A stretch of DNA of 64,000 bases from Donghicola mangrovi. Lineage in GTDB: Bacteria; Pseudomonadota; Alphaproteobacteria; Rhodobacterales; Rhodobacteraceae. The translations under genes and the position numbers were made by a program. The DNA is taken from NCBI RefSeq assembly GCF_013377535.1, contig NZ_JABCJE010000009.1:62001-126000 (forward strand). The letters are read 5' to 3'. The notes below the pieces were generated by a model. It saw nothing but the letters and a program-made list of their open reading frames with translations, was not told the DNA's origin and did not search any database. Each line of letters opens with the position of its first letter. Position 1 is the stretch's first letter. Below, in pieces: positions 20,525-51,792 of the stretch.

Positions 20525-20599
20525 TGGAGCGGGCGAGGCGATTCGAACGCCCGACCCTAACCTTGGCAAGGTTATGCTCTACCCCTGAGCTACGCCCGC
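20525..20599 (-). tRNA. tRNA-Gly (GCC), copy 3 of the array
   Basis: The acceptor stem GCGGGCG pairs with CGCCCGC, the anticodon GCC lies in an AACCT/AGGTT stem, the T-loop is GTTCGAATC, and CCA is encoded (20525-20527). Last copy on the minus strand and identical to the two upstream copies. Confidence 0.96.
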
Positions 20600-20623
20600 A
20601 CTCTCATACAGTCATCGGTTTTC

Positions 20624-20698
20624 TGGAGCGGGCGAGGCGATTCGAACGCCCGACCCTAACCTTGGCAAGGTTATGCTCTACCCCTGAGCTACGCCCGC
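20624..20698 (-). tRNA. tRNA-Gly (GCC), copy 2 of the array
   Basis: Identical body to its neighbours, with CCA encoded at 20624-20626. It is separated from copy 3 by 24 bases, too little for separate promoters, so one precursor is likely. Confidence 0.96.
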
Positions 20699-20733
20699 TT
20701 CCTTGGGAAAACCGATCCCTATCTACCTTCTTC

Positions 20734-20808
20734 TGGAGCGGGCGAGGCGATTCGAACGCCCGACCCTAACCTTGGCAAGGTTATGCTCTACCCCTGAGCT
20801 ACGCCCGC
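20734..20808 (-). tRNA. tRNA-Gly (GCC), copy 1 of the array
   Basis: First copy on the minus strand, identical body, CCA encoded at 20734-20736, and 35 bases from copy 2. Confidence 0.96.
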
Positions 20809-27340: not shown

Positions 27341-27385
27341 AATAAAAAAGCGGTGGCGCCAGGGAGGAGGAGAGGCGCCACCGCT
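27341..27385 (-). terminator. Terminal hairpin of the sRNA array
   Basis: On the minus strand an 11-12 bp GC-rich stem (27349-27360 with 27374-27385) with a CCUCCUCCC loop is followed by TTTTTTATT. It is the only hairpin of the ten with a T-run, so the others are probably separated by processing rather than termination. Confidence 0.8.
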
Positions 27386-27424
27386 AAAATACAGATGCTG
27401 CAGGGAGGAGGAGGGCAGCGTCTG
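27349..27424 (-). ncRNA. CcsR-like sRNA unit 5 (last)
   Basis: The 5' hairpin is 27392-27424 (10 bp, one G-U pair) and the 3' hairpin 27349-27385 (12 bp). Both loops expose CCTCCTCCC. The 3' hairpin is also the operon terminator. Confidence 0.82.
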
Positions 27425-27441
27425 ATCCCGGTTATAGGGCA

Positions 27442-27516
27442 CGGCGATATCCAGGGAGGAGGAGAGGATATCGCCGCTGATAACAGATGCCGCAGGGAGG
27501 AGGAGAGCGGCCTCTG
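27442..27516 (-). ncRNA. CcsR-like sRNA unit 4
   Basis: The 5' hairpin is 27484-27516 (10 bp, one mismatch) and the 3' hairpin 27442-27476 (11 bp, perfect). Both loops are the 13-base CCTCCTCCC-containing type. Confidence 0.82.
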
Positions 27517-27530
27517 ATCTCGAATTAGGT

Positions 27531-27603
27531 GCGGCGACACAGGGAGGAGGAGAGTGTCGCCGCTAGATTACAGAATGCTCAGGGAGGAGGAGAGAGCATC
27601 CTG
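27531..27603 (-). ncRNA. CcsR-like sRNA unit 3
   Basis: The 5' hairpin is 27571-27603 (one mismatch) and the 3' hairpin 27531-27563 (10 bp, perfect). Both loops contain CCTCCTCCC. Confidence 0.82.
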
Positions 27604-27618
27604 ATCTCGAATTTGAGT

Positions 27619-27696
27619 GCGGCGATACCCGAGGGAGGAGGAGAGGGTATCGCCGCAGATTACAGACGCCGCAGGGAGGAGGAGAGCGGCTATCTG
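27619..27696 (-). ncRNA. CcsR-like sRNA unit 2
   Basis: The 5' hairpin is 27663-27696 (small bulge) and the 3' hairpin 27619-27656 (12 bp, perfect, loop one base longer). Both loops contain CCTCCTCCC. Confidence 0.82.
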
Positions 27697-27711
27697 AACC
27701 CGGTATAGGTT

Positions 27712-27780
27712 TGGCGGTGGACCAAAGGGAGGAGGAGAAGGTCACCGCCAGCTCACAGAAACGGGGGAGGACCGTTTCTG
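27712..27780 (-). ncRNA. CcsR-like sRNA unit 1 (first, divergent)
   Basis: The 5' hairpin 27756-27780 has a 9 bp perfect stem and only a 7-base loop, TCCTCCC. The 3' hairpin 27712-27750 has a bulged stem and a CCTCCTCCC loop. It starts 12 bases after the DUF1127 stop codon, so it must be cut from the same transcript or overlap its end. Confidence 0.78.
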
Positions 27781-27792
27781 AAATCGTTATTC

Positions 27793-28008
27793 TTAGAGAG
27801 CGCCGAAACGCTCGTTAGCAGCTGCGATCGCGATGCCGGTGATCTGCGAACGGTGCAGACCCAAGTCAGCCAGCTCACGCGAGGTCAGAGCGTTCAGCTC
27901 TTTGACGGTCTCGCGGATCAGCATCTGACGTGCAAAGCGAACTTTCAGCCCTTCGAAGAAACCAGCAAAGCCAGCCTTCTGTGCGCGGATCTCGGTTGCG
28001 TATGCCAT
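27793..28008 (-). CDS. DUF1127 small RNA-binding-type protein (CcaF1-like)
   Basis: A basic 71-residue protein. The C-terminal half (RQMLIRETVKELNALTSRELADLGLHRSQITGIA) is a DUF1127 domain with the E-L-N-x-L-T-x-R-E-L-x-D-L-G motif. The N-terminus (MAYATEIRAQKAGFAGF) is typical of Rhodobacterales members. The start at 28008 is preferred to an upstream Met five codons earlier. In Rhodobacter sphaeroides the equivalent gene, ccaF1, is co-transcribed with CcsR sRNAs and its product binds RNA and affects sRNA maturation. The same order here supports this identity. Confidence 0.88.
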   Translation of the reverse strand: MAYATEIRAQKAGFAGFFEGLKVRFARQMLIRETVKELNALTSRELADLGLHRSQITGIAIAAANERFGAL

Positions 28009-28105
28009 CGTTACAGCCTTCAAATCGTTAAGCGGTCAGCGTGTCGTTCGGGTGTGTCCATCGGACGTTGCTGTCCTGTTGAGATTGAATTTACTCCAAT
28101 GCTGC

Positions 28106-28132
28106 AGATGCACAATCCCACGAACGTTCAAG
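28106..28132 (-). promoter_or_regulatory. RpoH-like promoter candidate for the DUF1127-sRNA operon
   Basis: On the minus strand CTTGAAC (28126-28132) is followed by TGCATCT (28106-28112), resembling the heat-shock sigma pattern CTTGAA-N13/14-CATNT. It would give a leader of about 90 bases. RpoHI/RpoHII control is known for the R. sphaeroides locus; here it is inferred from the boxes. Confidence 0.45.
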
Positions 28133-28458
28133 GCCGGTATGCGTTCGATGCATGCCTGTTGCGCCTGTCATTTTGGCAAACGGGGGCTCTGGTGCGCTGT
28201 TTATTGGGCGAAGCGCGGTTGTTTTCGCTAACGGCGGGTTTGGATCGATATGCGCGGGCGGTATGGCGCGCGGGGCAAAACATGCGCCCATACCGCGCGA
28301 TTTTGCCTTTTTTCTCTGAGTTATAGCGCGTGGGTCGCGCAGGCCTGTGCGAAAGAATAGCCGGAGTCTACGGCCGAAGTCGGGCAGGGGAAGCCATCCA
28401 TTGGTCCTATCCCGTCTTTCTGGCCCACGTGGCGCCGGGTGGGGCGGGCTGATCCGGT

Positions 28459-28729
28459 TGGGATCGCAAGGGAAGGGCGACTCAGATTGGGATGGGATGG
28501 GATGGGCGCCCCGCATGGGACGGGGATGGGATGACATGGGAAAGGCGTCAGTCTCCCCGCCAAGTGCGCCCATGGCGTCCCAATCCAGCCCAAAACGAGG
28601 CTATCCAATCCCCATCTCCGCCGGATTTCGCGGGGCCCTCTATATATAGGGGGTCTAAACATGAGGCCGAATGGGACGCCATCCCACCGCCGCCCAAATC
28701 CACCGGCGATTCCATGGGATCGCATGGGA
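28459..28729. promoter_or_regulatory. Cluster of TGGGN repeats at 10-base pitch (MraZ-box-like)
   Basis: TGGGA/C pentamers occur in direct pairs spaced 10 bases start to start: 28488/28498, 28493/28503, 28527/28537 and 28715/28725, plus complement pairs 28578/28588 and 28682/28692; 28459/28469 has AGGGA as its second member. MraZ proteins bind TGGGN repeats with 5-base spacers upstream of their own gene. Here mraZ begins about 760 bases downstream, further than usual. Confidence 0.5.
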
Positions 28730-28826
28730 CAGGGCATCACAGCCTTCGAATCCTGTCACTGAATCACGCGTAATCGAGGGTTCGTGAACGAAATCGCCTT
28801 ATTTTTTAGCCCCTGCAGAAGGAAAC

Positions 28827-38679: not shown

Positions 38680-39356
38680 CGGCGATAGGCCGTCAGCAGC
38701 CCGTTCCGGACGGCGTCGAAATGCACGACGCCGATCTGGGCGGGCACCTCGGTCAGACCCAAGAGGCGCGCGATGGCAAAGCGGTGCATCCCGCCGCCTG
38801 AGCGGATCGCGCGGCCATCGCGGTCGATATGCACGAAAATACCCCCATGTTCGCGGCGAAAGTAATCGGGCAGCGCGTTGCGCGGGCGCAGGGATCGTGT
38901 GCGGGCGGCCTCTTCAAACAAGCGGTCCATGCGTTCGTAGCGGGCGCGCAGGTCATCCACGGAATGGCAATCGTCGGCGATGCCCTTTTCGGCGATGTCT
39001 CGGGACAGCTTGGCGAACAGGGCGGTTTGCTCCCACGGGACGCCCATCAGGAAGTGCTGGCGGATGGCCTCGTCCTTGATGTTCAGGGTCAGGGGGGCGG
39101 TGCTGCGATCCCAGTCGCCGGTCATGATGCGGCCCGAATCCGTGCGGCGGAAGTTCGGAGCGCCCTTGCGCGGGTGCGCCACGTAGCGATGGGTGATCGC
39201 GCGCGGGTCGATATAGATACATTCGTCACTGAGCGGGGCAGCTTCACCAAAATGGGTACGGTTCTTCAGGTCTCGGAGCGCCTTGCGGGGCACCTGCGCC
39301 CTGATCGACCGCACGATATTCTGCGGGAGGAGGGGAGGGTGTATGACGTGGGGCAT
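38670..39356 (-). CDS. Uncharacterised protein with ParB-like domain
   Basis: A 228-residue soluble protein. Two blocks resemble a family of ParB-nuclease-fold proteins of unknown role: the middle [13 protein letters not shown]...[14 protein letters not shown] and the C-terminal [40 protein letters not shown], where the G-x-H-R turn is typical. It starts right next to a perfect 13-bp inverted repeat (39357-39387), which could be its operator or a 5' hairpin. Function unknown. Confidence 0.6.
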
Positions 39357-50120: not shown

Positions 50121-50184
50121 CGCCCCTTCTGACGTGGAATGACACCCTGCGGGGAGGCAGGGTTAACTTGAGGGAGGAGCGCCG

Positions 50185-51792
50185 ATGGCGCGGCTAAAGA
50201 GCCAGATCCAGACCGGATCGGAAACCTATCGGGCCAATCTGGCCGCGCATGAGGCGATGTTGGCCGAGGTGCGTGCCGCCGCCGATTGGGCGGCTGCGGG
50301 CGGCGGTGACAAGGCCCGTGAAAGGCACCTGAGCCGCGGCAAGATGCTGCCGCGGGATCGGGTGGGGGCGCTGCTCGATGCCGGGTCTCCTTTCCTCGAG
50401 ATTGGCGCCATGGCGGCGCACGGGTTGTACGAGGGAGCCGCTCCTTGTGCGGGCGTCGTTGCAGGGATCGGGCGCGTGCACGGGCGCGATGTCATGGTTG
50501 TCTGCAACGACGCCACCGTAAAGGGCGGCACCTATTACCCGATGACGGTCAAAAAGCACCTGCGGGCCCAAGAGATCGCCGAGGAATGCCGTTTGCCTTG
50601 TGTCTACCTGGTGGATAGCGGGGGGGCGAACCTGCCCAATCAGGACGAGGTTTTCCCTGACCGCGATCATTTTGGGCGGATTTTCTATAATCAGGCGCGG
50701 ATGAGCGCGAAGGGAATCCCTCAGATCGCGGTGGTGATGGGGTCGTGTACGGCGGGCGGGGCCTATGTGCCTGCGATGTCGGATGTGTCGATCATCGTCA
50801 AAGAGCAGGGAACGATTTTCTTGGCGGGGCCGCCGTTGGTGAAGGCCGCGACGGGCGAAGTGGTGACCGCCGAGGATTTGGGCGGCGGCGATGTGCATAC
50901 GCGCCTGTCCGGTGTGGCGGACTATCTGGCCGAGGATGATGCGCACGCTCTGGCTTTGGCGCGGGAAGCCGTGCGGCATCTGAACTGCCCTCCTGCGGGG
51001 GCAGTAGATTGGGCCGCGCCCGAGGAGCCCGCCTATGATCCGGACGAAATTCTGGGCGTGGTGCCCGGTGATCTGCGCACCCCCTATGACATTCGCGAGG
51101 TGATCGCGCGGGTGGTGGACGGCAGCCGCTTTGACGAGTTCAAGGCGCGGTTCGGGGAGACTTTGGTCACCGGTTTTGCCCATGTGGAAGGGTGCCCTGT
51201 GGGGATCGTGGCCAACAATGGGGTGCTGTTTTCCGAAGCCGCTGTGAAGGGCGCTCATTTCATCGAGCTGTGTTCGCAGCGGAAGATCCCCTTGGTGTTC
51301 TTGCAGAACATCACTGGGTTCATGGTCGGGCGGAAGTACGAGAACGAAGGGATCGCGCGGCACGGGGCCAAGATGGTGACGGCTGTGGCCAGTACCTCGG
51401 TGCCCAAGATCACCATGCTGGTGGGCGGGTCCTTTGGTGCGGGGAACTATGGGATGGCCGGTCGGGCCTATCAGCCGCGGTTCCTGTGGACTTGGCCGAA
51501 TAGCCGGATTTCGGTGATGGGTGGCCCGCAGGCGGCGGGCGTGTTGGCGACGGTGAAACGGGATGCCATCGAGCGCGCTGGCGGCGAGTGGAGCGCCGAG
51601 GAGGAAGCGGCGTTCAAGCAGCCCACGCTGGAGATGTTCGAGCGGCAGAGCCATCCTTTGTACGCGACGGCGCGGCTGTGGGACGACGGGATCATTGATC
51701 CGCGCAAGACGCGGGCGGTGCTGTCGCTGAGCCTGAGGGCGGCGCTGAACGCGCCTATTGAAGAGACCAAATTCGGCGTGTTCCGCATGTGA
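50185..51792 (+). CDS. mccB: Methylcrotonyl-CoA carboxylase carboxyltransferase (beta) subunit
   Basis: A 535-residue crotonase-fold carboxyltransferase. It carries [60 protein letters not shown] and [23 protein letters not shown], which are closer to methylcrotonyl- than propionyl-CoA carboxylase beta chains. With MccA it carboxylates 3-methylcrotonyl-CoA to 3-methylglutaconyl-CoA. The context with ivd confirms the leucine pathway. Confidence 0.95.

Follow-up and report, generated by a model that had tools for sequence, protein, structure and literature searches.

The window analysed here is a 64-kb stretch of the Donghicola mangrovi genome, in which ten hairpins were observed on the minus strand between positions 27780 and 27349, directly downstream of a short DUF1127 gene on the same strand, whose end lies 12 nt from hairpin 1 (Table 1). 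Each hairpin is predicted to fold alone, with energies ranging from -10.4 to -26.1 kcal/mol. The loop sequence CTCCTCCTCCC is exposed by nine of the ten hairpins and CUCCUCCUCCC is likewise present in nine array loops; hairpin 1 is the exception to the former, displaying TCCTCCC alone in a 7-nt loop on a 9-bp stem. Throughout the 64 kb, CCTCCTCCC is confined to the minus strand, with nine copies in array loops and one further copy at 39325. The hairpins are grouped as five A+B pairs, with linkers of 4–7 nt within pairs and 14–16 nt between pairs, and a T-run follows hairpin 10 only, which is the terminator by sequence, the other nine being without one. These observations agree with the preliminary description, which had claimed ten minus-strand hairpins with loops complementary to Shine-Dalgarno (SD) sequences, their arrangement in five pairs after a DUF1127 gene in the CcaF1-CcsR order, a contracted loop in the first unit and a T-run after the last hairpin only; a small correction concerns the stems, as hairpins 2, 3, 7 and 9 contain an internal mismatch or bulge. 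Elsewhere in the window, three tRNA genes with identical Rfam scores (65.4 bits each) were observed on the minus strand at 20528-20808.

Table 1. Positions in the window of the hairpin array, the DUF1127 gene and the elements upstream of it.
Feature	Position	Strand	Evidence or remark
Upstream LsrB/VtlR-type box TGCATCGAACGCAT (TGCA-N6-GCAT, also T-N11-A)	28139..28152	-	Site definition PMC10746234
Putative -35 TTG	28113..28115	-	RpoHI/HII consensus, PMC10673084; ATTGTGCA in 73/81 upstream regions
Downstream LsrB/VtlR-type box TGCATCTGCAGCAT, directly after TTG of putative -35	28099..28112	-	Sequence
Putative -10 region TAAATT	28088..28093	-	Position inferred from spacing
DUF1127 gene, 71 aa, CcaF1-type position	27793..28008 (incl. 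stop)	-	Pfam PF06568, E 1e-10; ORF; one of four genomic DUF1127 matches
Hairpin 1 (unit 1A), contracted 7-nt loop TCCTCCC, 9-bp stem	27756..27780	-	L023 and L144 share the loop on other stems
Hairpin 2 (unit 1B), wide loop with CTCCTCCTCCC	27711..27751	-	Motif match and folding
Hairpin 3 (unit 2A)	27662..27696	-	Folding
Hairpin 4 (unit 2B), 13-bp stem	27618..27657	-	Folding
Hairpin 5 (unit 3A)	27571..27603	-	Folding
Hairpin 6 (unit 3B)	27531..27563	-	Folding
Hairpin 7 (unit 4A)	27484..27516	-	Folding
Hairpin 8 (unit 4B)	27441..27477	-	Folding
Hairpin 9 (unit 5A)	27392..27424	-	Folding
Hairpin 10 (unit 5B, 27349-27385) and T-rich tail: terminator and last anti-SD loop	27338..27385	-	-26.1 kcal/mol
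Inter-unit linkers, presumed cleavage regions (14-16 nt)	27697..27710 (1/2), 27604-27617, 27517-27530, 27425-27440	-	Cleavage by analogy with PMC10253847
Rfam ar14 (RF02344) match	27478..27609	-	62.7 bits, threshold 58.8, E 5.7e-9

The covariation of stems between copies, also claimed earlier, was upheld by pairing beyond chance in the window and across 76 loci. In the window the 13-nt loop motif has nine copies, whose flanks form 72 pairs against a mean of 48.1 with permuted partners, and the observed pairing was reached by 79 of 362,880 permutations. Among 411 motif copies from 76 loci, of which the window is one, pairing extends to 7.17 of 10 flank positions, compared with 4.81 after shuffling and a shuffled maximum of 5.14 in 1000 shuffles. 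All 10 pairs vary on both sides in 26 hairpins from related loci (covariation 1.245 versus 0.225 shuffled), these being 26 of 30 hairpins chosen by script for at least 9 of 10 pairs; because of this preselection for pairing, the flank-permutation and shuffle test is the unbiased one.

By its sequence features the array is a cuckoo/CcsR-type anti-SD sRNA cluster, i.e. a CIN1 locus, exhibiting CCUCCUCCC in nine of ten loops (just CCUCCC in hairpin 1), variable yet paired stems and several genomic copies, and the published CIN1 pattern fits in the sequence features tested, except for a clear RpoH -12 element. DUF1127 genes with CcsR-like sRNAs are described as often present in alphaproteobacteria, and the same architecture, with a precursor cut by RNase E, is reported from Rhodobacter sphaeroides (PMC10253847). 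Compared by description, the R. sphaeroides CcaF1-CcsR1-4 operon (RSP_6037; CIN1) shares with the window a 71-aa DUF1127 protein, two-hairpin units with anti-SD loops in the 3' UTR and a terminator at the 3' end (PMC10253847, PMC8625941, PMC3927594), whereas the window has five units where R. sphaeroides has four, and a contracted first loop. The function of CcsR1-4 and CcaF1 has been published for these relatives (PMC10253847, PMC8625941, PMC8307010). The cuckoo RNA family (Reinkensmeier and Giegerich 2015, as presented in citing papers) likewise has CCUCCUCCC loops, divergent stems, multiple genomic copies and a DUF1127 link, and nothing found in those accounts excludes membership of the window array. 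Repeated CCUCCUCCC hairpins and the promoter site TGCA-N6-GCAT, to which LsrB binds in NfeR1, are shared with ar14/NfeR1 of Sinorhizobium meliloti, which in contrast has three hairpins, its own promoter and, in the available passages, no mention of a DUF1127 neighbour. One family with a varying number of modules has already been proposed to include the two-hairpin RNA known from R. sphaeroides as well as the RNAs with three and four hairpins from Rhizobiales (PMC3927594). A covariance-model search with Rfam ar14 supported family membership in part, since the stretch 27478-27609 scored above threshold and no other stretch of the array passed; among 11 further sequences, two of eight arrays and none of three solitary copies passed the gathering threshold. 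The published ar14 model thus fits poorly, few arrays and no solitary copy being recognised. In the ncbifam profile search no family was above cut-off for the DUF1127 protein.

A search with the DUF1127 protein among contigs from one genome per species retained 80 loci among at least 115 relatives; all of them except L097 (79 of 80) have anti-SD hairpins after the gene. The hairpin numbers, counted in the 80 loci and the window, range from 2 to 12 among array-bearing loci and are lower bounds, because the detector misses hairpin 2 of the window; exactly six were detected in 40 of the 81 loci, which are not independent, many belonging to Ruegeria. Arrays of 10–12 hairpins were observed in seven of the 80 loci (L023, L039, L061, L065, L079, L086 and L089). 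With strict filters, the R1 hairpin model matched in 95 of 149 family genomes, with 14 matches in D. mangrovi and 18 in genome G093, whose array alone holds 14 motif copies. The copy-number expansion, considered new in the preliminary description, therefore does not stand as such: five units is a high number but has precedents in the seven loci with 10–12 hairpins and the 14-copy G093 array. The divergent first unit has precedents as well, TCCTCCC loops on different, fully paired stems being found in L023, a metagenome-assembled genome whose DUF1127 protein is 77% identical to that of the window, and in G044 of the same genus. In the window and the 79 array-bearing loci, two or fewer TCC repeats occur in 21 of 80 first detected hairpins versus 62 of 451 later ones (p = 0.007). 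Decay was considered as the origin of the contracted first loop and rejected; as three different fully paired stems carry TCCTCCC (window, L023 and G044), the loop is kept and not decaying. The observation of the array and its family assignment are thus right, and the two novelties of copy number and first loop are wrong. Locus L097 (Rubellimicrobium roseum) has a DUF1127 gene and the upstream ATTGTGCA/GCAGCAT element with no anti-SD hairpins detected downstream, a possible array loss.

Further copies were detected outside the window. Three solitary two-hairpin units with T-rich ends lie in the D. mangrovi genome on contigs C16, C17 and C62, and the genome-wide DUF1127 search, which gave four matches, gave none on these three contigs. 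A degenerate hairpin pair was seen by eye after another DUF1127 gene on contig C1, and separate two-hairpin units are also present in G044 and G093. The plasmid search yielded only short array-like pieces, on three plasmids of Salipiger sp. CCB-MM3 (NZ_CP014597.1, NZ_CP014598.1 and NZ_CP014600.1); units may therefore travel on plasmids.

Predicted pairing, computed for free strands with loop strain ignored, amounts to -18.2 kcal/mol between the loop and GGGAGGAG and -8.4 kcal/mol between the loop and AAAGGAGA, while the loop of hairpin 1 reaches -13.2 kcal/mol with GGGAGGAG, also as free strands. The pattern GGGAGGAG-N3-11-ATG has 42 matches in the genome, including two double counts and three antisense to solitary copies, versus 3 for the reversed control; a control SD pattern gave 19 matches against 4 for its own reversed form. 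Twelve of the 42 matches were without a locus, and from the remaining 30 loci four were dropped (a duplicate, a 15-codon frame and two antisense strands of solitary copies), leaving 26 genes; the control set of 19 loci lost one 33-aa frame, leaving 18 genes. Transport components, assigned from Pfam names by our own reading in these small sets, make up 12 of the 26 genes with GGGAGGAG leaders and 3 of the 18 control genes, whose SD pairs weakly with the loop (p = 0.057), and solute-binding or TRAP proteins make up 10 of 26 versus 0 of 18 (p = 0.003), a category chosen after viewing the list. The enrichment could result from a general association of transport genes with SD type. The candidates resemble the transporter targets of NfeR1 and AbcR1/2 (PMC10746234, PMC8844928): the three anti-SD loops of NfeR1 are reported to act redundantly on transporter messages, with ntrBC silenced as well (PMC10746234), and the target sets of AbcR1/2 are large, at 6% of genes (PMC8844928). 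Within the window, GGGAGGAG at 50172-50187 lies ahead of an ORF that by eye is acyl-CoA carboxylase-like, a possible sRNA target.

The array very probably works as a cuckoo/CcsR-type anti-SD sRNA cluster in the 3' UTR of a CcaF1-type DUF1127 gene, giving a precursor, two-hairpin sRNAs and blocked SD sequences. A single precursor would start near 28088-28115 and would be cut in the inter-unit linkers into two-hairpin sRNAs, by analogy with R. sphaeroides, where RNase E with CcaF1 is described in this role (PMC10253847). Each loop could then pair with an extended purine-rich SD, for example on messages for solute-binding proteins, and thereby block ribosome entry. As the loop hardly changes whereas the stems drift, several near-equivalent units would raise the sRNA dose instead of diversifying targets. 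The 7-nt loop of hairpin 1 has six anti-SD bases; this hairpin should silence more weakly, and its main role may be to cap the DUF1127 message at its 3' end. It is improbable that the array is mainly a processing or stability device, in which the 3' hairpins protect the DUF1127 mRNA and the loops bind the DUF1127 protein or Hfq; the position of the hairpins behind the gene in 79 of 80 loci speaks for it, as do the reported RNA binding of CcaF1 and its involvement in the maturation of CcsR (PMC10253847, PMC12501420), whereas the loop stays near CTCCTCCTCCC while stems vary, and such loops silence NfeR1 targets (PMC10746234). Protection of that message is also at odds with the solitary units on three contigs without a DUF1127 match and perhaps with the separate two-hairpin copies of G044 and G093.

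The 16S tail has a CCUCC core. The loops, which contain this core, might mimic the anti-SD tail and damp SD-led translation globally under stress, and a high dose could be reached with as many as ten copies on one precursor; this is very improbable, given that predicted pairing favours GGGAGGAG over AAAGGAGA leaders and that the studied relatives act on sets of messages and not on all (PMC10746234, PMC8844928). A further alternative concerns copy number only and is compatible with the sRNA-cluster explanation: the number of units might be neutral, with recombination expanding and contracting the repeats, as the counts of 2–12 and the near-identical repeats of the Roseivivax arrays L061 and L086 would suggest. 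We consider it unlikely, since in the window the units have different stems that nonetheless pair, which indicates that these units are not recent copies and have been kept, and since the count of exactly six recurs in 40 of 81 loci, with the dependence among loci and the lower-bound counts noted above.

Conserved sequence also extends upstream of the DUF1127 gene. The motif TGCA-N6-GCAT, which is the LsrB site of the NfeR1 promoter (PMC10746234), occurs in at least one copy in 80 of 81 upstream regions of 300 nt (mean 1.86 and maximum 4 in 50 shuffles), L089 being the sole region without it; the regions are not independent, many being from Ruegeria. The exact tandem box pair is found in 52 of the 81 regions, and 71 have a TTG ahead of the downstream box. 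With regard to the RpoHI/HII consensus, -35 TTG and -12 TAT (PMC10673084), TTG-N19-TAT occurs in 64 of the 81 regions, and the window has a TTG that fits the -35 and a -12 that reads TAA. A search of 149 family genomes with the tandem pattern listed 68 matches, spread over 62 genomes, with the reversed control giving none; the sole match of the pattern in D. mangrovi is the window promoter. A TTGTGCA core is contained in 46 of the 68 listed matches, one per genome, and 30 matches were examined as loci: all 19 with the core precede a DUF1127-like gene and anti-SD motifs, while of the 11 without it a single one is followed by a DUF1127-like gene, and anti-SD motifs follow none. For this reason the exact tandem form with the core is specific; it is not universal, being present in 46 of the 149 genomes. 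R1 matches were found in 37 of the 46 genomes with the core tandem form versus 58 of the 103 without it (p = 0.005), the other nine genomes having the core tandem form without an R1 match. At L222 (G126), a DUF1127-like gene follows tandem TGCA-N6-GCAT boxes with no anti-SD motifs within 1.5 kb, and in the window a tract that by eye is rich in CCCAT/TGGGA repeats lies upstream of the promoter at 28321-28760, outside the conserved part.

The single 15-mer box TGCATRGCRGCATTG gave 8 matches in five genomes, 4 at CIN1 promoters and 4 at other places where inspection by eye showed no DUF1127-like ORF close by; an exact copy is lacking at the CIN1 promoter of Shimia (L079), and the box was replaced in searches by the tandem pattern. 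The box match at C45:78157 was dropped as a promoter site, lying by eye inside an hsp20-like ORF. The Brucella VtlR motif quoted in PMC12595884 reads TGCATGGCTGCATTG when reversed, and the common Rhodobacteraceae element TGCATAGCAGCATTG differs from it by eye at two places. The AbcR1-type box GCAT-N3-TG-N3-T is absent from the window and occurs in 10 of the 81 regions (shuffle mean 2.6, maximum 10). Upstream of the solitary copies the exact TGCA-N6-GCAT was found in 0 of 7, with related TGCA...GCAGCATT strings visible in several.

A candidate regulator is encoded in the same genome. The LysR protein at C23:341133-342035 has as its best PDB match 9HH1 (E 1.1e-71), the LsrB structure of PMC11975290, with 49 of the first 65 aligned residues identical. 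One such protein (E at or below 1e-60) was detected in 58 of 61 family genomes, D. mangrovi included, and in all 56 genomes with completeness of 90% or more and contamination of 5% or less; the ncbifam search with it gave no family over cut-off among the matches listed. A LysR gene divergent to another DUF1127 gene of the same genome (L113:661-1789, G000 C23) is distinct from the LsrB-like one. In Rhizobiales, a single LysR regulator, VtlR/LsrB, is reported to activate anti-SD sRNAs together with genes for DUF1127 or related small proteins (PMC12595884, PMC7486931, PMC8844928), and D. mangrovi shares with this regulon a LysR homologue and matching boxes; the sRNA and DUF1127 genes of the Rhizobiales regulon are separate loci, whereas in the window they share one presumed transcript, and the AbcR1-type box of that regulon has no match there.

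We give an even chance to the proposal that, in Rhodobacteraceae, a LysR regulator of the LsrB/VtlR type acts directly on the CIN1 locus by way of a tandem operator formed by the upstream box and the -35 box, LsrB/VtlR, anti-SD sRNAs and DUF1127 then being one module that would predate the split of Rhizobiales and Rhodobacterales and would here be fused in one transcript. This proposal contradicts PMC11975290, in which LsrB is said, on the basis of a tree of representative species, to be confined to Rhizobiales. Against it stand also the missing AbcR1-type box in the window, the absence of the exact tandem pair from 29 of the 81 regions and of the exact site from the solitary copies, and the control of the R. 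sphaeroides promoter, which is reported as RpoHI/RpoHII and is known here by description only, where the window has TTG-N19-TAA and tandem LsrB-type boxes; other LysR proteins could moreover use a T-N11-A site. A neighbourhood of trxB, lsrB and sRNA as in Rhizobiales was sought and not found, the neighbours of trxB on C45 being by eye an Lrp-like gene and an isochorismatase-like ORF. By term counts in the open-access papers searched, none joins LsrB/VtlR with CcaF1/CcsR, save PMC12501420 with one mention of LsrB in its reference list; the conserved promoter element may already be described in the cuckoo 2015, CcsR 2015 and CcaF1 2021 papers, which lie outside this search.

The array is thus a five-unit example of a known family, within which the number of units, the solitary copies and the first loop vary, and the conserved LsrB-type operator matters more than the array itself. 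If the LsrB-like protein drives CIN1 loci, the results obtained in plant symbionts and pathogens on LsrB/VtlR, AbcR/NfeR1 and DUF1127 would become applicable to photosynthetic and marine bacteria, and alternative sigma factors would no longer be the only control of the CcsR RNAs.
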